Shown piece by piece: positions 4,748 through 24,927 of a DNA stretch of 64,000 nucleotides. The notes beneath the pieces are model-generated. The model saw only the letters and a list, made by a program, of their open reading frames with translations. It was not told the origin of the DNA and searched no databases. Both the position numbers and the translations under genes were made by a program. Where the stretch lies: the NCBI GenBank assembly GCA_020846005.1, contig JADLEQ010000040.1, forward strand, positions 62,001 to 126,000, read 5' to 3'. This DNA is from Polyangiaceae bacterium. GTDB lineage: Bacteria; Myxococcota_A; Polyangia; Polyangiales; Polyangiaceae. Each line of letters starts with the position of its first letter. Positions within the stretch are counted from its first letter, which is position 1.

Positions 4748-5677
4748 TCAGTCGATCTTTCCGCCGAGCTGCTGGATGCGAGAGTTCGCGTCCGCGCACT
4801 CGTCCTTGTACTTGGTCGCGTTCGCGCTCCGGCAGGCTCGCTTGACGAAGGCCTTGAGCATCTGGATGGCCTTCTCCCGCTGCGGCGGCTGGCTCGCCGC
4901 GTAGGCGCTACCCAGGTTGAAGGAGATCTCGGGGTGCGTGTCGCCGGCGAATTCGTTCGCCTTCTCCAGCGCCACTACCATCGCCGCCGTGTCGCCCGAG
5001 CCCTGCGCGGCGACCGCGACCATCGAGTAGATGGTGTAGAGGTTGTCCTTCGTGTCCTCGCGCGGGGGGATGAGCCGCGTGCCCTCCTTCAGGATCGCCT
5101 CGGCGTCCTTGTAGAGGCGCATCGACATCAGGATCTCGGCGACCTCGCCGTAGAAATACGGCTGCGTCGGGTCGTGCTCGATCGCCTTGATGTAGTTCTC
5201 GATCGCGGCCTGCTCGTCCCCCGTCCAGAGGTGGGCCTGCCCCAGGAAGTGGTAGCACTCGGCGAAGTTCGGGTCCTTCTGAGTGCACTGCTTGAGGGGC
5301 TCTTTCGCCTCCTCGTACACGTCCTTGTTGTTGGCGTCCCCCTCGGCCTTCTTGATGAGCGCGTAGCCACGCTCGAACCAGTAATCGGCGAACTCCGGCG
5401 CGGCCTGGACGGCCCGCGCCATCGTCGAGGCGGCCTTGTCCCAGTCCTCCTTCTTCTTGTACGCCTGCCCGAGCTTCTTGATGATCCGATGGTTCGTCGG
5501 ATCGAGCTGGACGGCCTGCTCGTACTTCTGGATCGCCCCCTCGACGTTCACCTTGTAGGCTTGGTCGCCTTGGTTCGCGAGGTTGATCGCCTCGATGTGG
5601 TCGCGGCTGCAGCCGCCCGTGACGGCCAGCATCCCGACCAGCGAGGCCGCGGCCCCGAACAATTCACGTGCTCTCAT
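4748..5677 (-). CDS. TPR repeat lipoprotein in the glt-like row
   Basis: This 309-residue protein starts at the ATG at 5677, preceded by GGGAGAG; the longer open frame upstream has no better site. The N-terminus is a lipoprotein signal ending in VTGGC, with Cys23 as the likely lipidated residue. From residue 30 on it is a run of TPR units with typical N-x-A-Y-x-x-x-x-D-x-A and L-D-P-T features, including a well-formed set at about 30-130 and 160-290. It lies between gltG and the giant TPR gene, all on the minus strand, so it probably serves the same envelope complex as an outer- or inner-membrane-anchored adaptor. I do not recognise a named orthologue. Confidence 0.85.
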   Translation of the reverse strand: MRARELFGAAASLVGMLAVTGGCSRDHIEAINLANQGDQAYKVNVEGAIQKYEQAVQLDPTNHRIIKKLGQAYKKKEDWDKAASTMARAVQAAPEFADYWFERGYALIKKAEGDANNKDVYEEAKEPLKQCTQKDPNFAECYHFLGQAHLWTGDEQAAIENYIKAIEHDPTQPYFYGEVAEILMSMRLYKDAEAILKEGTRLIPPREDTKDNLYTIYSMVAVAAQGSGDTAAMVVALEKANEFAGDTHPEISFNLGSAYAASQPPQREKAIQMLKAFVKRACRSANATKYKDECADANSRIQQLGGKID

Positions 5678-6061
5678 CCGAGCTCTCTCCCGTTGCTGTC
5701 CACCATGCGTTTCGCCCGCGCGTGGCAACGGAAGCGGCCGGCCAGCGCGCGCTCCGGCAGGGCGCGAGCCCGGCGAAGCGGCGGCCAGCATAGGCGGACG
5801 GGCCCTCTCAAGTAAAGGCCCGCGCCCGGCAGTTCGCCCCGATTTCAGCGGCTTTCGGCGCGCCCCCGCCGCGACGCCGGCGGCGGCGCGGCGCCCCCGC
5901 GGCGCCCCCGCGATCGCGGCGGGCGACGCGCGCCGTCGCGGCTCGAGCCGCCGACGTGATCGCGCCTCGCGAGGTCGGTCGCCGCCGGAGCGCGCCGCCG
6001 GAGCGCGCCGCCGGAGCGCCGGCAGCTCCCGGCGCGAGCGCCGGTCAGCTCCAGCTCGGGC
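5678..6061. repeat. 384-bp intergenic stretch with a 13-bp tandem repeat
   Basis: No gene is visible between gltG and the TPR lipoprotein. The stretch is very GC-rich. Three perfect copies of GCCGCCGGAGCGC lie at 5981-6019, and a 7-bp inverted repeat (GCGCCGG, 6-nt loop, CCGGCGC) follows at 6016-6035. There is no T-tract, so it is not a classical intrinsic terminator. Confidence 0.6.
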
Positions 6062-8125
6062 TCACCCGGGCGAGAACATGATCGGATAGACGACCGTCAC
6101 GATGCCGCCCTCCGGCTGTGGGAAGGACAGCCCGTAGTACGCGCGGACGACGCACCCGACGACCCCGGAGTCCGGGATGTCCGAGCCGCCGTTCGACACG
6201 TTCGACACGGAGCCGTCTCGACCGATGACGAACCGGACGGAGACGCGCCCCTCGAGGTTCGGGTTCCGAGAGAGGCCCTGCTCGTAGCACATGCGGAAGC
6301 GGCCGTAGTTCTGCCGGACGATGCGCTGGATGACCTCCGGAGGGAGGCGGCCGCTCACCTGCGTCGCGCCCATGCGGACCTTCGGCGCCTTCGACTTGTG
6401 CGCCCCGCCGAGCCGCCCGTGGCCGGAACCGAAGCCCTGCCCGGTGCCGGTACCGGCGCCGTGGCCCAGCGTCCCGATGGAACCGAGGCCGATGCCTTCG
6501 CCGCGACCGCCGCCGCCCTCGCCGATGCCGGAGAGCCCGAGGCCCCCCGCGCCGAAGGCGTCGCCGATCTCGTCGCCCCACATGTTGCCGCGGGCGCTCA
6601 CGTCGTCCATGCCGAGCGAGGTGTCGCGGCCCCACGGCGCGGTCGGCGCGTTGGGATCACCGGCCGCGCCGGTGTTGAGGAGCCCGATCATGCCGAACTC
6701 GGTCGCCTCACGCAGCGCGGCCTGGCGCGCGAGGTGCGGATCGGGGTTGTCCTTCGGCCCCTGGACGGCGTAGCGCTTGTTCGTCGCTTTCGTCGTCGGG
6801 TTGCCCATCGAGCCCTCCTCGCCCTTGGCGCGAGTGCCCGTGCCGCCCTCCTTGTTGTCGGCCTTGTCCTGGGTGACCTCCTCGGTCTCCTTCTCCTCCA
6901 TCTCGCGCTCGGCCGCGGAGTTGAGGAACTGCTGGATGAGCACGAGCTGGCTCTTGTCGATGTCCTCGTCGCCGAGCAGGCCCGACGGCGGGATCGCGAA
7001 CGCGAGCGCCCCGATGAACCCGCCGACCGAGAGGAACGCGAGCCCGAAATAGGCGAACACCGTCCAGTCCGTCCCTGCCCCCATCCCGCGCGGCACCGGC
7101 TTCCCCGCGTTCACCGCCGAGACCTGGAAGACGAAGCCCCCGAGCTCGACGCGCGCGCGGCTCCCGCCGCCGAGCGCGATCTGCTGCGCGCCGCTCAGCT
7201 CGGCGCACGGCTGCGCCTTGGCGCGAGCCTCGTCCACCGTCATACGCCCCTGGCCAGCGATCTCGACGTGGCCCTTGGCGCCCGCCGGGAGCACGACGCT
7301 GGCTCCGCCGGCGCCCCCGAGGACGATGGGCATGCGGGTGGTGCCGAGCTTCTCGGATGGGACGAAGAAGTCGGTCGTGACGTTCTTCCCCTCCTCCTCG
7401 CCGATGTAGAAGTTCCTCGGCGGGGTGAGGTGCGAGACGTGGATCACGTTCGTACCCCAGAGGATCATGACCTCGACGGACTGGACGTGGGGCAGCTCCA
7501 CCTCGTCCGAGCTCACGTCGGGGCCGCTCTTCACCAGCGTGTAGGTGTACGTGCCGGGCGGCGCGTCATCGGGGACCGCGAGGCTCGACCCCTTGGACAC
7601 GCTGGCGAACGGGTTGGCGGACGCCACCTCGAACGGGTTGCTCGCGGCCGCGAACGGCGCCGACGCGCCCGCCGCAGCAGCGAACGGGTTCGCCGCCGCG
7701 GCCGGCGCGGACGCGGCCGCGAACGGCGACGAAGCTCCCCCCGCGAACGGGTTGGCCGATGCCGACGGCGCCGCGGCGGCCGGCGCGGGCGCCGGCGCAG
7801 GCTGGGCCTCGGCGCCGGGCGCGTCCGCGCTCTCCAGCGAGATCCGCGTCCCGCCGATCAGGATCTGATCGCCGACGTGGAGCTTGCACTTGTTGACCCG
7901 GGCGCCGTTCACCATCGTCCCCGGCTCGTTGCCGAGGTCGATGAGCGTCACGTCCTCCGGGCCGGCGACCTCGATCACCGCGTGCATGCGCGACGCTTGC
8001 TCGTCGTCCACGCGCAGGTGGCTCTTGGGATCCTTGCCCACCTTGACGATGTCCTGCGCGATCGTCTCGCGGCGCAGGAGGGCATCGTTCTGATACAGCG
8101 CGAACGTCAGGACGGCCTTGGCCAT
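6062..8125 (-). CDS. gltG: GltG-like inner-membrane FHA / TonB-C (AgmX/PglI type) protein
   Basis: 687 residues, ATG at 8125 with GAGGAA upstream. Residues about 22-100 form a forkhead-associated domain (VGKDPKSHL, SRMHAVIE, NEPGTMVNG), expected to bind phosphothreonine in the cytoplasm. An Ala/Pro linker at 105-178 carries repeated xPFA motifs. A second folded region spans 190-345. A single membrane segment lies at about 355-377. A charged stretch (400-450) and a Gly-rich linker (520-575) lead to a C-terminal TonB-like domain at 587-687 with the AgmX/PglI hallmarks (MCYEQGL, NPNLEGRV). This exact order is that of M. xanthus GltG/NfsG, which links the cytoplasm to periplasmic partners. The neighbours GltC/D/E/F fit. 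FHA changes: GK replaces the usual GR, and PGT the usual NGT, so phosphopeptide binding is uncertain. Confidence 0.9.
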   Translation of the reverse strand: MAKAVLTFALYQNDALLRRETIAQDIVKVGKDPKSHLRVDDEQASRMHAVIEVAGPEDVTLIDLGNEPGTMVNGARVNKCKLHVGDQILIGGTRISLESADAPGAEAQPAPAPAPAAAAPSASANPFAGGASSPFAAASAPAAAANPFAAAAGASAPFAAASNPFEVASANPFASVSKGSSLAVPDDAPPGTYTYTLVKSGPDVSSDEVELPHVQSVEVMILWGTNVIHVSHLTPPRNFYIGEEEGKNVTTDFFVPSEKLGTTRMPIVLGGAGGASVVLPAGAKGHVEIAGQGRMTVDEARAKAQPCAELSGAQQIALGGGSRARVELGGFVFQVSAVNAGKPVPRGMGAGTDWTVFAYFGLAFLSVGGFIGALAFAIPPSGLLGDEDIDKSQLVLIQQFLNSAAEREMEEKETEEVTQDKADNKEGGTGTRAKGEEGSMGNPTTKATNKRYAVQGPKDNPDPHLARQAALREATEFGMIGLLNTGAAGDPNAPTAPWGRDTSLGMDDVSARGNMWGDEIGDAFGAGGLGLSGIGEGGGGRGEGIGLGSIGTLGHGAGTGTGQGFGSGHGRLGGAHKSKAPKVRMGATQVSGRLPPEVIQRIVRQNYGRFRMCYEQGLSRNPNLEGRVSVRFVIGRDGSVSNVSNGGSDIPDSGVVGCVVRAYYGLSFPQPEGGIVTVVYPIMFSPG

Positions 8126-8173
8126 GGAACTTCCTCGGGTGACACGTGGGGGCGCGGCGCCCCGGCGGTGGGA

Positions 8174-8443
8174 TCAGATGTTCTCGACGGACTTGAGCAT
8201 CTCCGGCACGAAGGACGTGCGCGGGCGGATCAGCGTGGAGCGCGCCGCCTTTGGGCGCACGCGGATGGTGGCGTCGTTCGGCCCGAAGCCGCCCGCGTTC
8301 AGCGGATCGTCCTCGAACGAGTACCCGTACCCCTCATCGCTCGACTCGGCCTTCGCGCGCGCCCCCTGCGCGAACGCGACCGGGGCGAGAGCCAAGAGGG
8401 ACAGCCCGCAGGCGACCGAGATCAGGATCTTGCGCTTCGACAT
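8174..8443 (-). CDS. gltF: Small periplasmic protein, GltF-like by size and position
   Basis: 89 residues from the ATG at 8443, with GAGGAGA correctly spaced upstream. Residues 1-25 are a clear cleavable signal peptide ending in AFAQG. The mature part is short and hydrophilic, with a conserved-looking IRVRPKAARSTLIRPRTSFVPEML tail split across two Arg/Pro patches. It sits 48 bp upstream of gltG and follows gltE, exactly the place of gltF in the M. xanthus cluster; the assignment rests on position, length and export signal, not on a domain. Confidence 0.65.
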   Translation of the reverse strand: MSKRKILISVACGLSLLALAPVAFAQGARAKAESSDEGYGYSFEDDPLNAGGFGPNDATIRVRPKAARSTLIRPRTSFVPEMLKSVENI

Positions 8444-8948
8444 GGTGAAGTCTCCTCGAAAACTTCCGGGAATTGCAGCGTCAGTGTACTCCGGAGGGCC
8501 CGGCATCGTCAACGGGAAAGCGGGCTGGGGCGGAAGGATTCAGTCGCGGGGGGAGGGCACGGAGACTCGATACGCAGCGCCTCGTACGCAGCGCCTCGTA
8601 CGCAGCGCCCGGATGGATCGTGATCGGATCGGCCAGGAGCGGGCTCGGACGGGGGGCGCGCGCTCGGGCCTTGAGGCCGCGAGCACACGATACTGCTCGC
8701 GACCGACAGCGCCTTCGCGGCGAGGTTCCCGACATCGGTGACGTGAGCTGAAGAAATTCACACAGCCACACGGCACTCTTCCACCGAGCCGACAATCACC
8801 CGACACCAGCGGCCGAGCGCACCTGGTCGTGTGCAGCGGACCCGGGACGCCTGCTCCGCCCGCGGCAGCTGCGGGGCGCGCGCCGGGTGCGCCTCATGGT
8901 TCCGCGGCCGGGCCGCCCGCTCGCGCGAGGCGCCCGGCCCGCGTGCCC
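8444..8948. repeat. 505-bp intergenic stretch with 14-bp tandem repeat (8571-8609)
   Basis: No credible gene lies between gltE and gltF. TACGCAGCGCCTCG occurs 2.8 times in tandem at 8571-8609. A less GC-rich patch at 8740-8790 could hold a promoter for gltF-gltG, but no convincing -35/-10 pair is seen. The gap is long compared with the 22-48 bp spacing elsewhere in the row, so gltF-gltG may be transcribed separately. Confidence 0.5.
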
Positions 8949-10487: not shown

Positions 10488-10519
10488 GGGATGCCTCTGT
10501 TGCTTCGGGTGGTACACGG

Positions 10520-13500
10520 TCACTTCCCTCCCCCGGCCGGCTTGGCGGCCCCGCCCTCGCCGGGCTTCGGCTTCTCGGGCTCCGTGGATGGCGGCGCGGT
10601 GATGAGCGGCTCCCCGCCGATCTTGAGCGGGTACGGGCGCTCCTTCAGCGTGCTGTTCACGCGGCTCGCCGAGCCGGAGAACTCGTCCACGAGGTGGTAC
10701 TCGGACTTGTAGTTCTCCGCGAGCCAGGCCTCGCACGCGCGGGAGTATTCGTCGAAGTACTGATATTTCACCGAGTACTCGAGGCACGTCCGGTAGGCGC
10801 CCTTGGCGACCTGCTTCTGCGGCTCGGAGCTCTCATCGAGCGCCGCGAAGTACGCCTGGCGCAGCTCCGTGTCGCGCTTGAAGGACTCCGGGATGGGAGC
10901 GGCGCGGAACTCCTTGACGAAGGTGGCCCACATCTGCCCCACGCGCGAGCCGGCCGCGATGACCCACCGCGGAGGCGGGACGGGCTGCAGATCGATGATC
11001 TTCTTGTACTCGGCCGTCGCCTCGTCGATCAGCGGCTTCTTCTTCTTGATCCAGTCCGCGACCTTCGTCTGGATGTGCTTGAGCACCTCTTCCTTGGTGC
11101 CCGGCCCCTTGTACTCGGGGAACTTGACGGCATCGACCTTCGCGCGCTTCTGCTCGGCGAAGTAGAACAGCGCCTCGCCGACCGCCTCGAGCGCGCGACC
11201 CAGGCGGCGCTGCTTCGCGCCCTCGTCCTCGGGGAGCGCGTCGATCTCGGCGAGCGCCTTCTTCGGATCGCTCCACAGCTTCACGACGGTGCCGTACTCG
11301 GCGCCGGCGTTCTGGCCGCGGTTCATCCGAACGTACGTCCGCCCGAGCAGCGCGTGCGCCTGGACCTTCACGTCCAGGGTCGCCTTGCCGTCGATCAGGC
11401 CCATCGCGCCGGTCAGCCGCTTCCTGACGTCCTCCCACTGTTGCTTCTCCGAGTAGTGGGCGGCCACCGCGAAGGCGATCTGCGCCGCCTGGGCGGGCTT
11501 CTTGGCGCCGAAGTAGCGGTTGTAGTCGTTCGCCGCCTTGATGGCCTCGTCCTCCTGGCCGAGGCCGAGCCGCAAGACGACGGTGTCGCTCAGGGCCTGG
11601 TCCGCGAACTCGCCCTTGTACTTCGTCGCCTCGGCGTAGCGGACGTAGAAATCCGCCGCGCGGTCGTAGACGGCGATGGCCTGGTAGTTGCCGCCGATCT
11701 CGTAGGTCGCCTTCATGGCGAGATCGGTCTTCTCCAGCTTGTACTTCGGGTTGAGGAGGATGAGCCGGGCCTGGATCGACTTCGCCAACAGGCGCGCGGC
11801 CTGGTAGGCGCGAGCCATGTTGTAGACGATCTCGTCCATCTTCCCGCACTGGGACTTCTCGCCCTTCGCCAGCGGCTCCTCGCCGTACACGCGCCAGAGC
11901 TCGAGGTAGGCGTCGCCGCCCTCCTTGTACTTGTCGAGCGCCTCGCGGGTCTGGCCCTTGTCCTGCAGCGAGTCCGCGAGCTCGACCGTCTTCTGCGCGC
12001 GCATGCGCCGGATGTCGCACTGAATGCGGTTCAGGAGCTCGCACTGCTCCTTGTTGTCCTCGGCCTTCTTGCCCTGGCAGAAGCGCTCGAGGAGCAGCGG
12101 GACGTCCTTGCCCATGTCGTCGAAGCAGCTCGGCCGCGGGGGTTCGGCGCGCGCGCCGAGCACGTTGATGGCCTCGAGGTACAGCTGCGCGGCGTAGATC
12201 GCGGCGTCCTTGTCGGAGTGGTTCATCGCCACGTCGCGGAAGCCGAGCGCCGCCTCTTCCCAGCGCTGCGCCTCGAAGTACGTGCGCGCGCGAGCGTATT
12301 TCACCTCGACGTACTGCTCCTCCGCGCTGGTGTCGCCCTTGGGCGGCTTGATGTAGCAGACGTAGCGGTTGAAGGCCGTGAGCATGCCCTTCTGGAGCGG
12401 GGTCAGCTCCTTCGGCTTGAACCGCTCCCACTCGCCCTTCTTGGCCTCCTGATCCGATTTGTCGGCGCCCTTCGGACCGAGGCCCTTGCCCTTGCGGTCC
12501 GCCTCGCCCTTGTACATGGCGTCGTACATCTTCTGGTAGCAGAGCACCGCGGCGTAGGCGGCCTCGGCGGCGTCCGCGCCCGTCGGATTCTCGGCCACGA
12601 CGGCGTCGAAGGCTGGCCCGCACTCCTCCCAGCGCTGCTGGAAGTAGAGGAGGTCAGCCATCGCGTACTTGATCTTGTAGAGCGTCGGCCAGTCTTCCTT
12701 GACGATGCGCGGGAACTCGAACTTGGCGAAGTCCTGGCTGGTGAAGGTCTCGGAGATCCTCTTGTAGAGGTACGCCGCGAGGTCCATCGTCTTCTTGTCG
12801 CCGGTGCCGCGCACGCCGCCGGAGCCGACGGCCTCGAGGTGCCAGCTCATGCCCGTCTCCGCGAGGAGCTCGGCCGTCTTGTTGTCGCACTCGAGCTTCG
12901 CGTCGGCCGGGTGCTCCGACTTCTGGTACTGGTTGCGCATCGCGATCTGCGCGTCCATCTCCTTGCGGATCGCCTCCTTGTCGCTCGCCTTGACCGCGCT
13001 GGTCGCGCCGGTGATCTGCGCCTGGTAGAAGCACTCACGCTTGCCCTTGTCCCGGACCATGAGGTCCCGGTACAGCGTGATCGCCTCCTTGTAGTGGCCG
13101 GTGTCGAGGTAGGCGAGCCCGAGCTCGTTCAGCATCTCGATCGTCTTCGTCGTCTCGCCGCCCTTGTCTCCGGACAACGGCTTGAAGAAGCCGAACGCCT
13201 GCTCGGGCACGCCCGACACCGCGTAGACGGGGATGAGATCGCGCCGGGCCGACTTCGCGAGCTGCGCGGCGTTCGGCAGGGTCGCGTACTGCTCCCCGTA
13301 CTCGATCACCTTCTTGAACTCGCTCATCGCCTCCTTGTAGTTGCCCTGGTTCCAGTGGACGTACCCGAGCTTGTACCGGGCGTAGCCGTAGACTTTGTTC
13401 TCCGGCGGCGGGTACTTGATCACCTCAGCGTAGGCGCCCTCGGCGAGCGCCCACTTGTTCGGGTCGCCGAGCGCCTCCTGATAGAAGAGCTCGCCGAACG

Positions 13501-14293
13501 CGAGGTACGCGTTGGGGACGAACGGCGACTTTGGCGCCTTCTCGATCAGCTCGAAGTAGACCTCGCGCGCCTTCTTGAGGTTGCCGTCCTGCTCGTACTC
13601 GTAGGCGAGGTAGTAGAGGATCTCGTCGATCTTCGAGTAGTTCGGGTACGCCGCCTTCATCAGCGTGTAGAAGGCGATCGCCTTCTTCCGCGCGGCCTTC
13701 ACGAACTTCCCGGCGGTCGCGGCCTCCTTCTTCGCCTTGGCGGCCTTCTTCGCGTCCTTCTTCTTCCCGCCGACGCCCTTCTCGTAGTCCTGCGCCTCGA
13801 TCTCGGCCTTCGTCTTCTCGGACAGCGCGGCCGTCTCGAGCTCGACGTAGCCCTCCGCCAGGCGCTTGATGAGCTGCGGTCGATCGGGCGACTTCTTCGG
13901 CGTCGACTTGAAGAGACGCTCGAGGCCGTCGATCTCCGTGATGAGGAGCGCGCGCTTCCTCGGCGCGAGCTTGGACGCGCGGATGCTCTGCGCCAGCGAC
14001 GCGTCGACCGCCCCGGCCTTCGCCTGGTCCTGCCGGGCCTTCGCCTCACGGGGCGGGGGCGCCGACTTGAACGCCGTCCCGCGAGCCTTCTTCACCTCGA
14101 ACTGGCTCGGGCCGCCCGGGCACTCGTCGATGTTCTTCTTGGCCTCGGCGGGTACGCACTCGGCGCTGAGCGTGTGCGGCTCGGTCGCGGCCGTAGCGGC
14201 CGGGGCCGCGAGCACGGCGCCCACCATCGCCGCGAGAATGGCCACGGCGCGGAGGCCGCGTGCCTGGGTCCTGACGAAGATCTTGGGGTACAT
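10520..14293 (-). CDS. gltD: GltD (AgmU)-like large periplasmic TPR protein
   Basis: 1257 residues, close to the roughly 1200 of M. xanthus GltD/AgmU. The ATG at 14293 follows GAGGAG and opens a signal peptide (about 1-36, ending APAATAA). The mature protein is exported and Lys-rich, with TPR and TPR-like repeats through most of its length (for example about residues 195-480 and 690-1010) and a Pro-rich C-terminal tail. Scattered cysteines (CVPAEAKKNIDEC near the N-terminus) fit a periplasmic location. It lies 22 bp after gltC and 32 bp before gltE, so the three are surely one transcript. Role by family: periplasmic scaffold of the gliding (Glt) or spore-coat (Nfs) machine. Confidence 0.85.
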   Translation of the reverse strand: MYPKIFVRTQARGLRAVAILAAMVGAVLAAPAATAATEPHTLSAECVPAEAKKNIDECPGGPSQFEVKKARGTAFKSAPPPREAKARQDQAKAGAVDASLAQSIRASKLAPRKRALLITEIDGLERLFKSTPKKSPDRPQLIKRLAEGYVELETAALSEKTKAEIEAQDYEKGVGGKKKDAKKAAKAKKEAATAGKFVKAARKKAIAFYTLMKAAYPNYSKIDEILYYLAYEYEQDGNLKKAREVYFELIEKAPKSPFVPNAYLAFGELFYQEALGDPNKWALAEGAYAEVIKYPPPENKVYGYARYKLGYVHWNQGNYKEAMSEFKKVIEYGEQYATLPNAAQLAKSARRDLIPVYAVSGVPEQAFGFFKPLSGDKGGETTKTIEMLNELGLAYLDTGHYKEAITLYRDLMVRDKGKRECFYQAQITGATSAVKASDKEAIRKEMDAQIAMRNQYQKSEHPADAKLECDNKTAELLAETGMSWHLEAVGSGGVRGTGDKKTMDLAAYLYKRISETFTSQDFAKFEFPRIVKEDWPTLYKIKYAMADLLYFQQRWEECGPAFDAVVAENPTGADAAEAAYAAVLCYQKMYDAMYKGEADRKGKGLGPKGADKSDQEAKKGEWERFKPKELTPLQKGMLTAFNRYVCYIKPPKGDTSAEEQYVEVKYARARTYFEAQRWEEAALGFRDVAMNHSDKDAAIYAAQLYLEAINVLGARAEPPRPSCFDDMGKDVPLLLERFCQGKKAEDNKEQCELLNRIQCDIRRMRAQKTVELADSLQDKGQTREALDKYKEGGDAYLELWRVYGEEPLAKGEKSQCGKMDEIVYNMARAYQAARLLAKSIQARLILLNPKYKLEKTDLAMKATYEIGGNYQAIAVYDRAADFYVRYAEATKYKGEFADQALSDTVVLRLGLGQEDEAIKAANDYNRYFGAKKPAQAAQIAFAVAAHYSEKQQWEDVRKRLTGAMGLIDGKATLDVKVQAHALLGRTYVRMNRGQNAGAEYGTVVKLWSDPKKALAEIDALPEDEGAKQRRLGRALEAVGEALFYFAEQKRAKVDAVKFPEYKGPGTKEEVLKHIQTKVADWIKKKKPLIDEATAEYKKIIDLQPVPPPRWVIAAGSRVGQMWATFVKEFRAAPIPESFKRDTELRQAYFAALDESSEPQKQVAKGAYRTCLEYSVKYQYFDEYSRACEAWLAENYKSEYHLVDEFSGSASRVNSTLKERPYPLKIGGEPLITAPPSTEPEKPKPGEGGAAKPAGGGK

Positions 14294-14315
14294 TCGGGAC
14301 TCCTCGTTCCTCTCG

Positions 14316-16115
14316 TCAGCGCGCGCACGCGCTCGTGACCACCTGGCGGTAGAAGCCGAGCTCGTCGCGCCAGTACTCGCCGTCGAACGGCCAGAGGACG
14401 TGCTCCTCGTCTGGCTTGACGAGGCCATACGTCTGGCCCTGCTCCTTGGTGACCTGGCCCTGCTGGATGCTCTCGTCGAGGAGGTTCCTGCGGGCGGCGG
14501 TGATGTCGATCAGGATCTTCTCGCCGTTGCGCCAGTGCTCGTTCATGTCGTCGAGGTTGCGCTGGTAGCGGTCCATGGCGAGCTCGCCCGCCGCCTTCAC
14601 CGCGAGCTCGCGGGCCTGCTTCAGCGTGTCCTCGACGTTCTGACCGAGACTCGACCCGCGGAAGTTGGCGGGTGACTTGCGGAACCTCGCGAGCTCGTCG
14701 TCGAGCATCGCGACGTACTCGATATTGCGGAGGAGCTGGCGATCGCTCAGCGCGTTCTCGACGATCGGCTTGAGCACGGGCGGGTCGAAGGTCGCCTTCC
14801 CGGCGCGGACCTCCTTCAGGAACTTGAAGAAGGGCTCCTCTTGGTTGGCGCCCTTGAACTTCGCGAGCACCTTCTCCAGCCCGGTGCGGATCGGGCCGTA
14901 CTTCTTCTGGAAGCGCGCGACGACGGTGGTGGCGCCCTCGTAGTTGCAGTTCGCGAAGTAGACGACCGCCTTGAGGACCTGCGCCTCCGGGTAGAACGAG
15001 TTCGGGAAGTAGGGGCTCTCGAGCGTGTGGATGTTGCCGAGCGCGTGGGGGTAGTCGCCGGCCATGAAGTACGCCCACGACTGCTCGAACAGGGCGTCGA
15101 GCCAGTACTCGCTCGCCATGTCGACCATGTTCCAGTACTTCACCGCGGCCGAGAGCTTGTTCTCGTCGACGGTGGGCGCGTTCGTCTCGGCGTCCAGGCG
15201 GATGGAGGCGCTGTAGTAGGTCCGCGCCATGGAGAGGTAGGCGAGATCGCGGAGCCGGGCCTCGTCCTCGACGCCCTCGACGCCCTCGTCCAGCGCCTTC
15301 TCGATCCGCTGGAACGAGTTGACCGCCGGGACGGACTTGCGGAGCTGCACGTAGCTGATGCCCATGAAGAACTGGGCCTTCACGTAGTACTCGCTGTCGC
15401 GGTCCACCTTGAGGAAGAGGCGCACCGCCTCCTCGTACTGGCGGTTCCGGTACTTGTAGCGGCCCAACATGTAGTTGAGCTGCCAGTAGAGGTCCTTCTG
15501 CTGCGCGTTGTTGAAGCGCGAGACCTGGTCGTCGGTGTACTTGCCGACGCGCTCGATGATATCCGCCGGCTCGGGGAGCTGCGTCGCGAGCTTCGCCAGC
15601 CAGAGCAGCGTCTCCTTGAACTTGAGGTGGTTCTTGTTGTCGGCGATGACGCTGAAGCGCGCGTAGCTCGCCTGGAAGAACTTGAGCCGGTAGAGCGCGA
15701 TCGCGAGGTAGTACTCCGCCACCTGGCGGTTGCCGGGGTCGTCGCCCGTCTCGCCGTTCACGACGCGGAAGAGCGCCTGCGCGGCGTCCTGCCACCGCTC
15801 ACGATCGAAGAGCTTCTTCGCGGCGGCCGCCTCCTCCGTCATCTGCCCCGCGGTGACCGGGCCTTGCTCCGCGGGCGCGTCCTCGTCGAGGTCGATGTCG
15901 ACGCCGCCCTTCTTGTCGCCCGCCTTCTTGTCGCCCGCCTTCTTGTCGCCCGCCTTCTTGTCGCCCGCCTTCTTGTCGCCGGCGGCGGGCTTCTTCTTCG
16001 GAGTCTCCTCCTCGTCGAGGTCGATCACCTCCTGCGCTCGCACCTGCGTGGGAGCGACCGAGACGAGCGCGGCGGAGCCGAGGACGCACAGGGCGACCAG
16101 GTGCTTGCGGAACAT
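14316..16115 (-). CDS. gltC: GltC-like periplasmic TPR protein with Lys-rich repeat
   Basis: 599 residues, ATG at 16115 with GGAG upstream. A signal peptide (1-28, ending QVRAQ) is followed by an odd segment: an acidic patch (DLDEEE), four to five KKAGD units at about 46-68, and a second acidic patch (DIDLDED). From residue 90 on the protein is TPR-like (AEYYLAIALYRLKFFQASYARF, YMLGRYKYRNRQYEEAV). It is the first gene of the row and directly precedes gltD. M. xanthus GltC is likewise an exported TPR protein, encoded with gltA/gltB. A generic TPR protein is the fallback. Confidence 0.75.
   Translation of the reverse strand: MFRKHLVALCVLGSAALVSVAPTQVRAQEVIDLDEEETPKKKPAAGDKKAGDKKAGDKKAGDKKAGDKKGGVDIDLDEDAPAEQGPVTAGQMTEEAAAAKKLFDRERWQDAAQALFRVVNGETGDDPGNRQVAEYYLAIALYRLKFFQASYARFSVIADNKNHLKFKETLLWLAKLATQLPEPADIIERVGKYTDDQVSRFNNAQQKDLYWQLNYMLGRYKYRNRQYEEAVRLFLKVDRDSEYYVKAQFFMGISYVQLRKSVPAVNSFQRIEKALDEGVEGVEDEARLRDLAYLSMARTYYSASIRLDAETNAPTVDENKLSAAVKYWNMVDMASEYWLDALFEQSWAYFMAGDYPHALGNIHTLESPYFPNSFYPEAQVLKAVVYFANCNYEGATTVVARFQKKYGPIRTGLEKVLAKFKGANQEEPFFKFLKEVRAGKATFDPPVLKPIVENALSDRQLLRNIEYVAMLDDELARFRKSPANFRGSSLGQNVEDTLKQARELAVKAAGELAMDRYQRNLDDMNEHWRNGEKILIDITAARRNLLDESIQQGQVTKEQGQTYGLVKPDEEHVLWPFDGEYWRDELGFYRQVVTSACAR
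15909..15980. repeat. 15-bp in-frame minisatellite inside gltC
   Basis: CTTCTTGTCGCCCGC (plus strand) occurs four times perfectly at 15909-15968 and a fifth time for 12 bases. On the coding strand each unit adds KKAGD-type residues. Near-perfect identity suggests recent expansion by slippage. Confidence 0.9.
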
Positions 16116-16665: not shown

Positions 16666-17301
16666 ATGATGTCAAGCACGCGCTCCCCCTGGTCGATCGC
16701 CCGTTCGCTCCGCCTGCTCGCGCTCCCGGCGCTGGCGGCCGCCACGCTCGCGCTCGGCTGCGAGAGCGGCGGCGTCGGTGACCCGTGCGTCCCAGAGGAC
16801 GAATACCAACAGGAATTCAGCGGGTACTCGTCGGACGAGGTGAACGTAGAGAGCCGATCGTTCCAGTGCGAGACGCGGGTCTGCCTGGTGAACAAGTTCC
16901 AGGGCCGCGTGTCGTGTCCCTACGGGCAGACGGCGGAGGACATCGCGGGCGAGCAGGGCACGTCGCCCAAGCGCTGCCGCATCCCCGGCACCAGCGGCGA
17001 GCGGCCGGTCGATCAGATCACCGCCGTCGTGAACGCCCAGCTCGTGGAGCGCCGGGCGGACAAGGCCGTCTACTGCTCCTGCCGCTGCGCGGGCCCCGAC
17101 CCGAACGCGCGCTACTGCGAGTGCCCGAGCGGCTTCAAGTGCACCGCGCTCATCGACGATCTCGGCCTCGGCAACGCGAACCTCGCTGGGTCGTACTGCG
17201 TGAAGGACGGCACGGCGGGCACGGCGGCCATCTCGAGCCAGACGTGCAACCCGAACCCGGCGAGCCCCGACTTCTGCGGCGGCGACGGCGCCAACCCGTG
17301 A
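16666..17301 (+). CDS. Cysteine-rich lipoprotein of unknown function
   Basis: 211 residues from the first of two adjacent ATGs (16666/16669). The N-terminus is an export signal ending in LALGC (Cys32 probably lipidated). The mature protein holds 14 further cysteines, some in dense groups (YCSCRC, YCECPSGFKC) that recall EGF-like disulfide knots. It is transcribed divergently from gltC. I recognise no family. Cys-rich lipoproteins are known contact-stimulable gliding components in myxobacteria (Cgl proteins), but nothing here proves such a role. Confidence 0.75.
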   Translation: MMSSTRSPWSIARSLRLLALPALAAATLALGCESGGVGDPCVPEDEYQQEFSGYSSDEVNVESRSFQCETRVCLVNKFQGRVSCPYGQTAEDIAGEQGTSPKRCRIPGTSGERPVDQITAVVNAQLVERRADKAVYCSCRCAGPDPNARYCECPSGFKCTALIDDLGLGNANLAGSYCVKDGTAGTAAISSQTCNPNPASPDFCGGDGANP

Positions 17302-17370
17302 GCCAGGGGCGCGCGGGCGAGCGGTCGCGCTCCCCGCAACCGGCGGCCCGCACGAGCCGATGCTCGGCGA

Positions 17371-17739: not shown

Positions 17740-17748
17740 GCGCGGCGA

Positions 17749-18531: not shown

Positions 18532-18756
18532 GGGGTGCTCCTCGGGGACGGGGCGCCGCGCCTCCGGGGGCGCCGGCGTGACGTGGCGGCTCCGCAGACC
18601 GGACCCGACCACGCGGTCGGTGACCCAGCCGGACGCCCGCTCCGTGGGCGGGCGTGAGCTGGTCCCGAAGATCGTAGGGTGCCCCGCCGGGTGAGCGCAA
18701 GCAACCGGCAGCCGGCCCGGCGCCCCACCCGTGCGCCTGCCGTCACGCTCGCCGGC

Positions 18757-19629: not shown

Positions 19630-19759
19630 ACGCCGACCGACCGAATCTCTCGACTTGATTGGACGAGGCGTGGTCCGCCGCCATTCTGCGTCGCCGCGCG
19701 CCGACGACCGCGGACGCCTGCCCGAGGCGGCTCGCCACGCGCCGTGGTAGGCGGGATCG

Positions 19760-21439
19760 ATGCGCGGCTCCGGCGCCCTGGCCGCGGCGATCGCCACCTT
19801 GACGAGCGCGTCGCTCGCGCGCGCCGTCGAGGTGCGCGTCACGGGGACGGCGGTGATCGAGGCGCGGGCGGCCGTCCGCGGCGGCCGCGTGGAGCTCCGC
19901 GGGCGTCTCACGGATGACGCGGGCCGCCCGCTCGCTGGCGAGGCGGTCGCGCTCGAGCTCTCCGGACCGGCCGCCGGCGCCACGCCGCGGGCGTGCGCGA
20001 CCGGACGCGGCCCGGCGAGGAGCGGTCCCGGATGGACGCTCGTGACCGACGCGTCGGGGACGCTCTGCGCCGAGCTGCACGGCGCGGGCGTCGGGGGGAC
20101 GGCTCGGCTCCGCTTCGCCGGCACGGCGTGGACGGCAGCGACCGCGCTCGACGTCGTCGTCGACACCGCGCGCGAGGCCGTCACCCTCGCGTTCGAGCCC
20201 GCGCCCTCGACGCTGCCGCTCGAGCGCGCGTCGCACGTCGTGTGGATCCAGGCGCGCGGCGACGGCGTCGAGGCGTCCGATCCGATCCAGGTCGAGCTCT
20301 CGCTGCAGGAGCCCGACGGCGCTGCGCGCTCGGTCGCGCGCGCGAGCGCGCGCCTCGGCGAGCAGGTGAGGCTGGTCGTCAGCGGCGACGCCCTCGGCGA
20401 GCCCGGGCCCGCCACGCTGCGTGCGCGCTTCGCCGGCACCCCGCAGCTCGCGCCGGCCGAGGCGACCGCGCTCGTGCAGCGGACGGTCCGCGTGACGATC
20501 ACCGCGCCGGCGAGCCTGCAGCCGGCGGATCCGGCCGACGGCATCGAGCTCCCCGTGGCCGTCGGGTGGGCACGGGGGCCCATCGCGGGGGGCCTCGTCG
20601 ACGCGCGCCTCGGGCGCGAGTCGGTCGGCACCGGCGCCGTGAGCGATGGTGCGGCGCGCGTCGTCGCGCGCTTCGAGACGACGCGCAGCGGCGACGTCCC
20701 GCTGACGCTCACCTACGTGCCCGCCGCGCCGTGGCTCGTGCCCGCGGAGCCGCTCGTCCTCCGCGTCCCGGTGTCGGCCCCGAGCCCATGGCGGCGCTGG
20801 CCGTGGCTGCTCACCGCGCTCGGCGTGACGGCGATGGTGACGTGGACGTGGCGGCGGCCGGGGCGGCACGCGGAGGCGGCGCCCGCCCGGCCCCCGGCGG
20901 ATGGGCGCGCCTCGCTCGAGCTGCTCCGCGCGGGTCCGCCGCGGTCGGGGTGGACGGGATGCGTCGTCGACGCCCACGAGGGCGGCCCGCTCGCCGGCGT
21001 GGAGATCCGGATCGTGGCCGCCGGCTTCACCGAGGATGCGACGCTCGCCAGCGTGACGTCTCGAGCGGACGGGCGCTTCGAGCTGCCCTGGGTGACCCCC
21101 CCGGGCGCCACCGGGCGGATGGAGGCCCGCTCCGAGCACCACGCGGCGTTGGTCCGCGCGCTGCCGCCGGAGGGCGAGGTGGTGCTCGCCCTCGTGTCTC
21201 GGCGGCGAGCCATCCTCGATCGGCTGGTCGCCTGGGCGACCCGGGCCGGCCGCCCGTGGCGTGAGGGCGCCGAGCCGACCCCCGGACAGCTCGCGCGCGC
21301 CGCCGAGGAGCGCGCGGCGCCGGACATCCAGGCGTGGGCGCGCGCGGCGGAGGGCGCGGCGTTCGGCCCCGTAGCGCCGTCGGAGCAGGACGAGCGCGCC
21401 GTCGAAGCGCTCGAGCCACGGGCGGCGCACCGGGGCTGA
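19760..21439 (+). CDS. Membrane-anchored protein with Ig-like and carboxypeptidase-regulatory-like domains
   Basis: 559 residues with a signal peptide (1-22). The exported part (25-340) consists of beta-rich modules; one at about 32-60 reads as a fibronectin/CarboxypepD_reg type unit (GRLTDDAGRPLAGEAV). A membrane helix lies at about 345-365, followed by a second CarboxypepD_reg-like module (CVVDAHEGGPLAGVEIRI) and a charged C-terminus. Such proteins in myxobacteria usually sit at the envelope; the substrate or partner is unknown. It precedes ftsY by 89 bp. Confidence 0.75.
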   Translation: MRGSGALAAAIATLTSASLARAVEVRVTGTAVIEARAAVRGGRVELRGRLTDDAGRPLAGEAVALELSGPAAGATPRACATGRGPARSGPGWTLVTDASGTLCAELHGAGVGGTARLRFAGTAWTAATALDVVVDTAREAVTLAFEPAPSTLPLERASHVVWIQARGDGVEASDPIQVELSLQEPDGAARSVARASARLGEQVRLVVSGDALGEPGPATLRARFAGTPQLAPAEATALVQRTVRVTITAPASLQPADPADGIELPVAVGWARGPIAGGLVDARLGRESVGTGAVSDGAARVVARFETTRSGDVPLTLTYVPAAPWLVPAEPLVLRVPVSAPSPWRRWPWLLTALGVTAMVTWTWRRPGRHAEAAPARPPADGRASLELLRAGPPRSGWTGCVVDAHEGGPLAGVEIRIVAAGFTEDATLASVTSRADGRFELPWVTPPGATGRMEARSEHHAALVRALPPEGEVVLALVSRRRAILDRLVAWATRAGRPWREGAEPTPGQLARAAEERAAPDIQAWARAAEGAAFGPVAPSEQDERAVEALEPRAAHRG

Positions 21440-21528
21440 TCTCCGCGCACCGCAGCGCGCGGCCCGGCGCGCGTTGACGGCGGCACGACCGACGGCCTAT
21501 GGTGCCGCGCCACCGCGAGGCGAGCGTC

Positions 21529-22824
21529 ATGGGTGATATCGTGTACGTCCTGGGAGGTCTGATCGCGCTCGCCGCGATCTACTTCCTGTTCTTCCGGAAG
21601 CCGGCGGAGACCCCGAAGGAGCTGCCGGCGCCGGAGCCCGAGCCAGCGCGGCGCGAGCCCGCGCCGAAGGCGGGCGGGCCGAGCGCGCGAGCCGCAGAGC
21701 CCGAGCCCAAGGCCGAGCCGCGTAAGGCCGCGGCCGAGCCCGCGCCGAAGCCCGTGGCCGCCCCAGCGGCGAAGCCAGCGCGCGAGGCGGAGCCGGAGCC
21801 GGCGAAGGCCGCGCCCGCACCGCCTCCCGAGCCGCCGCCGCCGCCGAGCGCCGCGCCGGATCGTCCGTCGCTCACACCGAAGCGCGACGTAGGCGGGCTC
21901 CGCCGCGGGCTCGCTCGCTCCCGCGAGGAAGGTGGCTTCTTCGCGAAGCTCCGGTCGCTGCTCGGCGGTCGCAAGGATCTCTCGCCCGACGTGGTCGCAG
22001 ATCTCGAGGAGGCGCTGCTCGCGTCGGACGTGGGCGTGGCGACCACGGAGACGATGGTAGCTCGCGTACGGGAGACGCTCTCGAGCGCCTCCCGGGTGAA
22101 CGAGATCGCGGTGTGGGACGCGCTCCGCGCCGAGGCGCGACGCGTGCTCTCCGTTGGCGGGAAGGCGGGGCCGTTCACGCTGCGTGCGCACCCGACGGTC
22201 GTGCTCATGGTCGGCGTCAACGGCGCGGGCAAGACGACCACCATCGGGAAGCTGGCGACGCGCCTCGGCGCCGATGGGAAGAAGTGCGTGCTCGCGGCGG
22301 GCGACACCTTCCGCGCGGCGGCGGTGCAGCAGCTCGTGGTGTGGGGCGATCGAGTCGGGTGCGAGGTCGTCCGCGGCAAGGACGGCGGCGACCCCGGGAG
22401 CGTCGTCTTCGAGGCTGTCCAGCGCGCGAAGACGCTCGGCGCGGACGTGGTGCTGGCAGACACCGCGGGGCGCCTGCACACCAAGACGAACCTGATGGCC
22501 GAGATGAAGAAGATCGCCAAGACGACCGCGAAGGCGATGGACGGCGCGCCGCACGAGATCCTGCTGGTCGTCGACGCTACCAACGGGCAGAACGCGCTCG
22601 CGCAGGCCGCCGAGTTCAAGGACACCCTCGAGGTGACCGGCATCGTGTTGACGAAGCTCGACGGCACGGCGAAGGGCGGCGTCATCCTCGGGATCGCCGA
22701 CACCCTCGGGCTGCCGGTGCGGTTCGTCGGATTGGGCGAGCGGGCCGACGACTTGCACCCCTTCGTCCCCGAGAACTTCGTGGAGGCCCTGCTGGGCGCG
22801 GACGGTGAGGCGGGCGTGGAGTGA
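21529..22824 (+). CDS. ftsY: Signal recognition particle receptor FtsY
   Basis: 431 residues from the ATG at 21529 (GAGGCGAG upstream); an in-frame start at 21499 adds ten residues before the membrane helix and is less likely. FtsY docks SRP-bound ribosomes at the inner membrane through paired GTPases. Visible parts: an N-terminal membrane helix (3-21), a long Pro/Ala/Glu linker (22-115), the N domain (about 125-215), and the G domain with GVNGAGKTTTIGKLA (P-loop), DTFRAAA, DTAGR and TKLDGTAKGG. The true transmembrane anchor differs from the amphipathic A domain of E. coli but is seen in related bacteria. Confidence 0.97.
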   Translation: MGDIVYVLGGLIALAAIYFLFFRKPAETPKELPAPEPEPARREPAPKAGGPSARAAEPEPKAEPRKAAAEPAPKPVAAPAAKPAREAEPEPAKAAPAPPPEPPPPPSAAPDRPSLTPKRDVGGLRRGLARSREEGGFFAKLRSLLGGRKDLSPDVVADLEEALLASDVGVATTETMVARVRETLSSASRVNEIAVWDALRAEARRVLSVGGKAGPFTLRAHPTVVLMVGVNGAGKTTTIGKLATRLGADGKKCVLAAGDTFRAAAVQQLVVWGDRVGCEVVRGKDGGDPGSVVFEAVQRAKTLGADVVLADTAGRLHTKTNLMAEMKKIAKTTAKAMDGAPHEILLVVDATNGQNALAQAAEFKDTLEVTGIVLTKLDGTAKGGVILGIADTLGLPVRFVGLGERADDLHPFVPENFVEALLGADGEAGVE

Positions 22825-22893
22825 TGGCGCGGCGGAAGTTTCCAAGTGCGGCGGAGGCCGCCGTGTCGACACGCGCGCGGTCATCATTTGGCA

Positions 22894-22923
22894 TTGATCG
22901 CGGGAAAATCCGCGTGATATAGT
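22894..22923 (+). promoter_or_regulatory. Candidate promoter with internal palindrome upstream of the GltB-like gene
   Basis: TTGATC (22894-22899) and TATAGT (22918-22923) are 18 nt apart, matching sigma70 boxes at 4 and 5 of 6 positions. The spacer holds the inverted repeat CGCGG-GAAAAT-CCGCG (22899-22914), which could be an operator. The following gene starts at 23039. Confidence 0.4.
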
Positions 22924-23038
22924 CGCCGCGCTCGCGCGGGAATCCAATTTCCTTTGTAGTTTCAGTCACTTCCCAGGGGCGGCTTCGAGCCGCGCACCCG
23001 CAAGACGGTCCGATCCGAGGCAACCCCAAGAGGCATCG

Positions 23039-23998
23039 ATGAACAAGCGTGGCATCGGGCTCCTCATCGCCACCGCACTCGCGGTCGCGGGGACGAGCGC
23101 GTACGCCCAGCCGAAGAAGCCGGCAGAGGGCGAGGCAGCAGCGGGGGCTGGCGCCGAAGGCGAGGCAGCCACTGGCGAAGCGCCGGAGGGCGAGGCGCCG
23201 GAGGGCGGCGAGACCCCCGAGGGTGAGGAGCCGGTGGAGCCGGACATCACCGGGGACGGCCTGGGCGACATCTGCAAGATCGACCCCGAGGCGTGCCCGC
23301 ACATCGACATGGACAAGGAGGCCAAGAAGCCCCTCCGCGAGGACATCTACGCCGTCCAGCAGGAGTTCGTGCTGAAGGTGCGGCGAGTCCAGGTGAACCC
23401 GTACTGGGCCTTCACGCTGAACGACCAGTTCGTCAGCCACCCGGGGCCCGGCATCGCCGTCGACTACTACTTCACCAAGGTCCTCGCCGCGGGCCTGAAC
23501 TTCAATTACTACCGCCCGTTCAACGTCGACAGCGCGTTCAACGCCCAGCTCCGCCGCGCCGCCCGCGTCGCCGTGCCGCTCACCGAGTACGACTGGGGCG
23601 CGGCGCTGAACTTCACGTACGTCCCCGCGTACGGCAAGTTCGCCGGCTTCGGCGAGTTCATCTTCCACTACGATGCGTACATCGTGGGCGGCGTCGGCGC
23701 GATCTCCACGCGGCCGATCGCCGTCATCGACCCGGACAATCGCGAGTTCGAGTACGAGCCCAAGATCTCGTTCAACGCCGGGATCGGGCTGCGCATCTTC
23801 TTCAACCGGTGGTTCGCTGCCATCCTCGAGGTGCGCGACTATGCGTTCTTCGACGAGCTCGAGAACCTCCAGATCGCGGCCAACCCGCGGGACAAGAGCA
23901 CCTGGACCGACGAGACGAGCTTCACGAACAACGTGCAGGCTCAGCTCGGGGTGGGCATCTTCATCCCGTTCTCCTTCGACTACAGGCTGCCGAAGTGA
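23039..23998 (+). CDS. Outer-membrane beta-barrel protein, GltA/GltB type
   Basis: 319 residues with a signal peptide (1-24, ending SAYAQ). An acidic low-complexity linker built on EGEA/PEGE units covers about 30-70. The rest is an amphipathic beta-strand protein with many aromatic residues (VNPYWAFTLNDQFV, VDYYFTKVLAAGLNFNYY) and an aromatic-rich end (FIPFSFDYRL), typical of the myxobacterial outer-membrane barrel family to which GltA, GltB and CglE belong. The next gene encodes a second barrel and overlaps it by one base. In M. xanthus gltA and gltB are paired in the same way. Confidence 0.8.
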   Translation: MNKRGIGLLIATALAVAGTSAYAQPKKPAEGEAAAGAGAEGEAATGEAPEGEAPEGGETPEGEEPVEPDITGDGLGDICKIDPEACPHIDMDKEAKKPLREDIYAVQQEFVLKVRRVQVNPYWAFTLNDQFVSHPGPGIAVDYYFTKVLAAGLNFNYYRPFNVDSAFNAQLRRAARVAVPLTEYDWGAALNFTYVPAYGKFAGFGEFIFHYDAYIVGGVGAISTRPIAVIDPDNREFEYEPKISFNAGIGLRIFFNRWFAAILEVRDYAFFDELENLQIAANPRDKSTWTDETSFTNNVQAQLGVGIFIPFSFDYRLPK

Positions 23999-24927
23999 TG
24001 GACACGGAGCAGGCGATGGCAACGACCCCCACCACCAAGTCGCGCGGAGCGAGCCCCCGGCGGAGCCGGCGCGCCCGAGCCGTAGCGCTCGCCGTCGGCG
24101 CTCTCGCGGGTGCAGCGACGCTGCTGCCGGCCGGCGAGGCGCGCGCGCAGGAAATCCTCCTCACCGGGCCGCTCGCCGGGGCGCCGGCGGTGCGAAAGCT
24201 CCGGCTCTACCGCGAGGAGCGCCTTGAGGTCGCCCCGGCCGTGTCGTTCACTCTGCTGGACGAGTATCAGCGCACGATCGTGCTCGGCGCGCGGGTGAAC
24301 TACAACTTCACCGACTGGCTCGCGGCGGGCGCCTACGTCGGGTACGGCGGGCTGCTCCAGCTGCCGACGGGCCTCACCGAGAAGACCCAGAAGGTCAACG
24401 AGGCGCGCATCCAGGGCGACCCCGCCGGGACCTCGGCGGATCGCCGGCTCACGGCCGTCAACATGGGCCCGAGCTTCGAGGATCAGCTCGGAGGCATCGA
24501 CTGGATCTTGGCGCCGCAGATCACGGGCGTGCCGTTCCGCGGCAAGCTCGCGCTCTTCCAGTCCGTCCATCTGGACACGGACCTCTATTTCTTCGCCGGG
24601 CCGGCCATCATCGGCGTCTCGGAGCGGCAGGACTGCAAGCGCGGCCAGTGCCCCAACTCGTTCGAGACGACGAGCCGGGTGCAGATCGCGCCGACCTTCG
24701 GGCTCGGGTTCACGTTCTACGCGAACGAGTGGAACGCGATCGGCTTCGAGTGGAGGGGGCTGCCCTTCCCGATCAACACCGGCGGCTTCGACACGCACGG
24801 CGGCGGGGCGGACGGCGAGTTCCCCGACGACCAGGTGAACGCTGACGACCGAGAGTATCGGTTCAACCAGATGCTGACCGTCAGCTACAACTTCTACTTC
24901 CCGCGGCTCCACCGGGTCAGCGAGTAG
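23998..24927 (+). CDS. Second outer-membrane beta-barrel protein, GltA/GltB type
   Basis: 309 residues from the ATG at 23998, which shares its A with the upstream TGA (TGATG). An alternative ATG at 24016 has a better ribosome site (GGAGCAGG) and gives 303 residues. An Arg-rich signal peptide ends in EARAQ. The mature protein alternates polar and hydrophobic residues (VNYNFTDWLAAGAYVGYG, VHLDTDLYFFAG, LGFTFYANEWNAIGFEW) and ends YNFYFPRL. It is probably co-translated with the upstream barrel gene, so the two may form one outer-membrane unit of the Glt complex. Confidence 0.78.
   Translation: MDTEQAMATTPTTKSRGASPRRSRRARAVALAVGALAGAATLLPAGEARAQEILLTGPLAGAPAVRKLRLYREERLEVAPAVSFTLLDEYQRTIVLGARVNYNFTDWLAAGAYVGYGGLLQLPTGLTEKTQKVNEARIQGDPAGTSADRRLTAVNMGPSFEDQLGGIDWILAPQITGVPFRGKLALFQSVHLDTDLYFFAGPAIIGVSERQDCKRGQCPNSFETTSRVQIAPTFGLGFTFYANEWNAIGFEWRGLPFPINTGGFDTHGGGADGEFPDDQVNADDREYRFNQMLTVSYNFYFPRLHRVSE

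Follow-up and report, generated by a model that had tools for sequence, protein, structure and literature searches.

The window analysed here, 64,000 nucleotides of Polyangiaceae bacterium DNA (GenBank assembly GCA_020846005.1, contig JADLEQ010000040.1, positions 62,001 to 126,000, forward strand), carries a set of genes resembling those of the trans-envelope Glt machine of Myxococcus xanthus and of its relative Nfs. The genes gltC, gltD, gltE, gltF and gltG, followed by a gene here called T, run contiguously in this order on the minus strand from 16115 down to 4748, and a pair of GltA/GltB-type barrels is encoded about 7 kb from gltC-G on the other strand. The genes of the set, several of which encode tetratricopeptide repeat (TPR) proteins, are the following:

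1..4624, minus strand: gltI-like, 1541 codons from the start of a 3773-amino-acid (aa) TPR protein, which continues outside the window to C40:55303
4748..5677, minus strand: T, a TPR protein of 309 aa with a signal peptide and an early cysteine, for which no family name fits
6062..8125, minus strand: gltG, 687 aa, with an FHA domain, one hydrophobic stretch (by eye) and an AgmX/PglI C-terminal domain
8174..8443, minus strand: gltF, a small secreted protein of 89 aa, named from its position between E and G, its length and a match of 31 bits
8949..10487, minus strand: gltE, a TPR lipoprotein of 512 aa (NF033758, 67 bits)
10520..14293, minus strand: gltD, a TPR protein of 1257 aa, named from pairwise scores to GltD
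14316..16115, minus strand: gltC, a secreted protein of 599 aa (NF033756, 292 bits)
16666..17301, plus strand: gltK (cglC)-like lipoprotein gene, 211 aa, divergent from gltC, named from profile comparison and position
23039..23998, plus strand: barrel B1, gltB-like, outer membrane, 319 aa (TIGR04565, 88 bits)
24016..24927, plus strand (alternative start 23998): barrel B2, gltA-like, outer membrane (TIGR04565, 48 bits)

An initial annotation had described a near-complete Glt/Nfs-type machine split over two loci, which holds on gene content and families. Gene calls together with family and pairwise matches place gltC-G on the minus strand as proposed, and the D-E-F-G order agrees with that of M. 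xanthus, where these genes are MXAN_4870-4867 and GltF has 89 aa (Luciano 2011, Table 1). The extent first given to the locus needs revision: the genes stand as named, but position 4748, given as its start, is where T ends, T is not among the M. xanthus glt genes, and the locus is larger than claimed, with the GltI-like gene (1-4624 and on), T and the GltK-like gene (16666-17301) added.

The arrangement is widely conserved. GltC was searched for in the source genome and 38 relatives, and strong matches (E 2.5e-70 or better) were found in 32 of the 38. G009 and G023 gave partial matches, the match in G011 was of another type and had no other genes of the set beside it, and in G001 (90% complete and the sole relative from the same genus), G002 and G019 matches were weak and partial only. 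Thirty of the strong-match loci were taken for order counts (G027 and G032 were left out). C-D-E-F-G-T stood in order on one strand in 28 of them, the remaining two, L099 and L112, ending early; these loci were fetched by their GltC match, and an order so widely shared is not due to chance. The barrel pair lies 3′ of the same upstream gene, which we take to be ftsY, in all seven relatives whose upstream side was read. A GltC-like protein without other cluster genes was also seen in L115, L116 and L117.

The identity of the individual proteins was assessed with family models and pairwise comparison. GltC matches its NCBIfam model with E 7.5e-87 over profile positions 55-620 of 622, and GltG matches NF033760 at 335 bits (E 1.1e-99, positions 5-647 of 650), with its C-terminal domain matching NF033768 (85 bits) and its FHA domain matched in Pfam. 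For GltE, NF033758 is the top of the seven families listed, the best stretch covering positions 199-404 of 411. Pfam TPRs occur in three of the proteins, GltD, GltE and T. The NCBIfam matches included no GltD or GltF model; GltD gave generic TPR models only there, and F was not scanned. In pairwise comparisons, GltC scored 196 bits with M. xanthus GltC vs. 137 with NfsC, GltE 76 bits with Archangium GltE vs. 65 with NfsE, and GltD 134 and 164 bits with GltD of Archangium and Anaeromyxobacter, respectively, and 133 with NfsD; GltF, equal in length to M. xanthus GltF, matched it at 31 bits (E 2.5e-5). Barrel B1 lies above the TIGR04565 cut-off of 60 bits and scored 64 bits with GltB, 57 with GltA and 48 with NfsB, while B2 lies below the cut-off and scored 38 bits with GltA and 27 with NfsA. 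The family matches, together with best pairwise scores to M. xanthus GltB and GltA, respectively, bear out the barrel pair annotated on the opposite strand. By best high-scoring segment pair, Glt exceeded Nfs for six of the seven window proteins, F being tied. Best hits outside Glt/Nfs for three or more of the C-G proteins, which would have spoken against the annotation, were not seen: C, E and G have a Glt family as best NCBIfam match, and against M. xanthus-type references all five match Glt best, F equally with Nfs.

The GltI-like open reading frame (ORF) starts 123 bp downstream of T, at 4624. Judged from its sequence, the 3773-aa product is a homologue of M. xanthus GltI, to which it aligns colinearly with 27% identity over 3140 aa (752 bits), reaching nearly the C-terminus. 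When 2800 of the 4132 residues of GltI were used as query, the GltI-like protein was the top match in the genome (240 bits). The long ORF after T matches it in 28/28 relative loci that carry T and G, although about 250 residues of that ORF are all that can be read in L113 and L114. A second giant TPR protein of 3779 aa is encoded on C55 (L372:3577-14916); it scores 531 bits with the GltI-like protein, 263 bits with M. xanthus GltI, and 119 bits with the partial GltI query.

Divergent orientation of the gene at 16666-17301 relative to gltC is seen in 29 of the 30 relative loci. Pairwise comparison with GltK, the outer-membrane lipoprotein also called CglC (2015 paper), gave E 0.06 only. Alignment of profiles with hhalign (33 vs. 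44 sequences) gave a probability of 76.5 and a one-target E of 2.6e-6, compared with 1.3 and 0.039 for a reversed-profile control. When the profile of the window's GltK family was run over 4755 ORFs of the loci from the scan of named genomes described below, Myxococcus gltK genes ranked 1-3 (best E 1.3e-4) and listed gltK genes made up 15 of the 25 best; most of the other ten add no independent support, because they occupy the same position in loci of the window's type. In the reverse search with a GltK profile, the four best were all expected genes, one match fell below E 0.01, and the window gene lay outside the 25 best shown. In M. xanthus AM003 (L186), a gltK-like gene, named by place and length, is likewise divergent, from gltB-A-C. 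The profile match and the fixed position indicate a GltK/CglC-like gene, with the pairwise and reverse searches weak. A Myxococcus-like gltK-B-A-C set, scoring 353 bits with M. xanthus GltK, was also encountered in a record titled Comamonas sp. KCTC 72670 (L177), which is perhaps mislabelled or contaminated.

Both of these assignments could be over-read, the first gene encoding a generic TPR protein and the second being an unrelated lipoprotein gene. TPR similarity is promiscuous, as the 531 bits between the C55 protein and the GltI-like protein illustrate, and the GltK pairwise E of 0.06 and the outcome of the reverse search would fit this explanation. We consider it improbable, given that the GltI match is colinear nearly to the C-terminus, at 752 bits vs. 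263 for the C55 protein, and fixed in position, and that for GltK the profile match and the position agree.

The slot after gltG is occupied by T in all 29 readable main-set loci (the window and 28/28 relatives), and no gltH match was found after gltG in any of the 29. A signal peptide and an early cysteine are seen by eye in most aligned rows, and T is probably a lipoprotein; the lipobox of the window protein is non-canonical. T was first found by BLAST with the window protein alone, before a profile was made, and the profile contains 18 of the rows on which it was run. In the wider set, T follows gltG in 17 window-type rows including the window (15 distinct; L194 and L245 repeat L163 and L148). 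It also follows gltG in L162, a basal Glt-side row, and lies 2.4 kb behind gltG in L152; L216, of the window's clade, has neither T nor H within 3.2 kb after gltG. Nine Glt-side loci (L167, L170, L232, L233, L235, L237, L241, L244, and L283) have H after gltG, as do three Nfs loci. Four of these twelve H rows match by construction, because the loci are in the H profile, whose members are L278, L281, L284, L283, and L277. A third group has H after gltG in 5/6 loci, weakly (26-39 bits), and neither T nor H in the sixth, L159. The slot counts omit L150, L153, L165, L099, L112, and L286, which are too short, and the G4 type described below was left out of the H test. The weak T matches in L233 and L244 (38 and 15 bits) are located within the GltI-like ORF. 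Matches of 246-279 bits in M. xanthus, Archangium and Anaeromyxobacter were withdrawn as T candidates, as the alignment used contained the Anaeromyxobacter protein (L233); the M. xanthus and Anaeromyxobacter candidates lack an N-terminal signal peptide by eye, and the later T profile excludes the L233 protein. No counterpart of T was established in Myxococcus.

The simplest reading of this distribution is that H was ancestral at the slot and that T replaced it in the window's lineage, although the T in L162 would then require one more change or an exchange. Tentatively, and with somewhat more doubt than confidence, we propose that a whole branch of the Myxococcota swapped the outer-membrane GltH, at the place between GltG, which contacts the motor, and the GltI scaffold, for a periplasmic TPR lipoprotein, creating a second, structurally distinct envelope coupling. 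T itself would stand in for GltH. In 2011, GltI and GltJ were placed in the Myxococcales ancestor and GltH and GltK later, and glt homologues were reported in Sorangium, Plesiocystis, and Haliangium (Luciano 2011). The H-type matches in Anaeromyxobacter and the third group, and the GltK-like gene found here, suggest that GltH and GltK are older than that placement. The exchange of T and H appears to be new, as do the wider range of GltK and the Glt-side placement described next; full-text searches of open-licence papers on glt, nfs and agl terms turned up no mention of a gene like T, and T has no searchable name.

Whether the set belongs with Glt or with Nfs, which the initial annotation had left to a phylogeny, was addressed with trees of joined C, D, E, and G proteins. 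A single scan of named genomes (best 80 of 475), with a follow-up, supplied the loci of Myxococcus, Archangium, Corallococcus, and Anaeromyxobacter, and the M. xanthus nfs cluster (L278) was assigned by gene order. A quick tree of 51 rows put the window in a 30-row clade beside a 10-row Glt clade (join 94), and in a fuller tree of 34 rows the window group was sister to Glt (98/98). A grouping of the window group with Nfs was rejected in an approximately unbiased (AU) test (p-AU 2.3e-5) for which the groups were named after the 51-row tree. Among the rows prepared for the 51-row tree, E of L233, L235, L232 and L244 was missing (ORFs above 900 aa were dropped). The fuller tree was made under LG+G4, with no mixture; 15/34 rows were of odd composition, and M. 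xanthus Glt, whose D and E were not included, is not among the rows. A grouping of Glt with Nfs was rejected too (p-AU 7.1e-5). This differs from an earlier statement that glt has its closest homologues in the nfs genes (Luciano 2011), and sampling and model may matter.

Searches based on GltG and GltC revealed no Nfs cluster in this genome, where an Nfs orthologue should have shown, because M. xanthus NfsG scores 337 bits with the GltG profile. One set may therefore do both jobs, and the machine could have an Nfs-like role, the motor moving the cluster round the cell and wrapping an exported coat of polysaccharide as spores or cysts form, instead of gliding. In M. xanthus, the Agl motor powers Glt as well as Nfs (Wartel 2013), and GltG-like proteins are found in 115/143 phylum genomes at 1e-30. 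However, the AU test separates the window group from Nfs, and GltI and GltK, both present here, are outside nfsA-H (Luciano 2011; 2015 paper). Such a role thus seems unlikely, if less so than the other alternatives considered here.

Over more than 400 positions, the GltG profile matched only two further proteins in the genome, on C80 and C59. The latter belongs to a second, distant core cluster (L082, C59:1-20000) with GltC-, D-, E-, and G-like genes, followed by what we take to be outer-membrane-protein-like and OPX/Wza-like genes; genes that are presumably polysaccharide-export-like stand beside the G4-type cluster in both L082 and L282. Two loci of the same clade, L282 (Archangium) and L287 (Anaeromyxobacter), adjoin genes that we assume to be MglB-MglA-like. 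The C80 protein (L083:10700-12595) is a solitary GltG paralogue with 52% identity to the window GltG over 551 aa, in which the FHA part of the GltG profile finds no counterpart; it was dismissed as part of a second machine, as no other window Glt protein was matched in the surrounding 19 kb. In Archangium lansinium (L280), an extra GltG lies above the NCBIfam cut-off (823 bits including frame neighbours), besides the glt and nfs copies.

As annotated, the window holds no motor. The genome does: an ExbB/ExbD set on C68 groups with M1 (AglRQS) of M. xanthus, Archangium and Anaeromyxobacter (support 93/96), making it an AglRQS orthologue, with identities of 53% over 205 aa for AglR, 32% over 192 for S and 39% over 61 for Q. 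The aspartate at position 28 in AglQ of M. xanthus (position counted along the sequence), a residue to which a role is ascribed, is kept here as D27. Another set, on C106, groups with M2 (100/100), as an M2 orthologue. C68 (L027:1-127) and C106 (L028:1-124) both begin, in opposite orientation, in the same 15-bp tandem repeat beside an Agl-type motor operon, and in a one-contig relative (G021) the two motor operons are divergent and about 1.1 kb apart; the two are therefore probably neighbours here as well. An ExbB gene with two ExbD genes on C107, adjoining what are presumably Pst-like and TonB-like genes, was rejected as an Agl motor, since the tree places it at a distance from AglRQS. Binding of AglR to GltG has been observed for the M. 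xanthus proteins in a two-hybrid assay (Luciano 2011).

Two Agl-type motor operons are present, probably adjacent, and either might pair with the transducer. The set might be a general envelope machine of the lineage whose function is neither gliding nor a spore coat, possibly with the M2-type motor as its drive, and the core complex is also found in bacteria for which gliding is not known (Luciano 2011). With the tree and the accessory genes Glt-like and an M1-type motor present, there is little probability in this explanation.

GltJ, counted among the gliding proteins essential in Myxococcus (Luciano 2011), is absent from the window as annotated, where the matches of the GltJ profile are confined to the tail of GltG and a frame interrupted by a stop. 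Candidates on C19, C81, C47, and C107 were rejected. The best of those, on C19, shares three domains and matches NF033761 at 90 bits (450 needed), and GltJ orthology is not supported by sequence.

Gene content, gene order, tree placement and the presence of motor genes were established directly. We consider it likely that the cluster is a Glt transducer orthologue and that the AglRQS orthologue, whose genes lie on another contig, would power it; assembly, force transmission and gliding are envisaged by analogy with M. xanthus, and the same force chain is expected here because of homology. A proton-driven AglRQS motor in the inner membrane would pull on GltG, whose FHA domain would lie in the cytoplasm and whose TonB-like tail would lie in the periplasm, and the giant TPR protein GltI would serve as cytoplasmic scaffold; in a 2026 review, GltI appears alongside GltG as a scaffold to MreB. 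Force would then pass via GltC, D, E, and F to the barrels GltA/GltB and the lipoprotein GltK in the outer membrane. GltA and GltB are reported to stabilise each other and GltC in M. xanthus (2015 paper). Surface material or a foothold would thereby travel along the cell, gliding being the most likely purpose, and T, probably a membrane-anchored TPR protein, could join the periplasmic parts to the envelope in GltH’s place.

Several observations weigh against a Glt transducer orthologue. GltC, GltE, and GltG do not reach their equivalog cut-offs (292 of 450, 67 of 225, and 335 of 650 bits), although the cut-off for GltG seems to be fitted to the Myxococcus side, because it is passed by 0/143 phylum genomes drawn and 4/4 picked Myxococcus-side genomes. 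The Glt-vs.-Nfs margin of GltD is one bit when Archangium is the reference, and GltF scores equally with GltF and NfsF (31 bits each). In the 409,678 bases searched of this 5.70-Mb genome, the best GltH match has an E of 0.026. The one M. xanthus match of the C19 GltJ candidate at 1e-5 is another gene, so that the relation is not reciprocal. In the motor tree, the program warns of long branches, with the M1 join at 93/96. Finally, the cluster is not in every relative (32 strong, two part, one other type and three weak of 38).

Overall, the findings indicate that the set is Glt, not Nfs, and that far beyond the lineage of Myxococcus the Glt set includes GltI and a GltK-like lipoprotein. The locus looks like a known machine in a lineage-specific version and offers a natural experiment on GltH, in which A/B, C, D, E, F, G, I, and a K-like protein are kept and another protein sits in the GltH slot.

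Among the known systems compared, M. xanthus Glt (gltA-K, clusters G1 and G2) likewise has the A/B barrels, C, D, E, F, G, I, and K, and the window set has in common with it the D-E-F-G order, a gltK gene divergent from its neighbour and an M1-type motor in the genome. The window set differs in that C, D, E, F, G, I, and the K-like gene are at one place here and at two in M. xanthus, that T is in the gltH slot, that gltH was not found in the bases searched, that gltJ is unsupported, and that the barrels are divergent, behind the presumed ftsY. The glt locus of Anaeromyxobacter oryzae (L233, L373) also has barrels, C-D-E-F-G and I in one place; however, an H-type gene follows its gltG (72 bits) where the window has T, and a GltJ-like gene (by eye) follows its gltI, whereas none was seen beyond gltI here (L370). 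M. xanthus Nfs (nfsA-H) shares the C-D-E-F-G order of homologues, but it forms a separate clade, has no I, J, or K counterparts and carries H after G. The G4-type core cluster, found in L282, L287 and in this genome on C59 (L082), has C, D, E, and G homologues in common with the window and falls in a distant clade.

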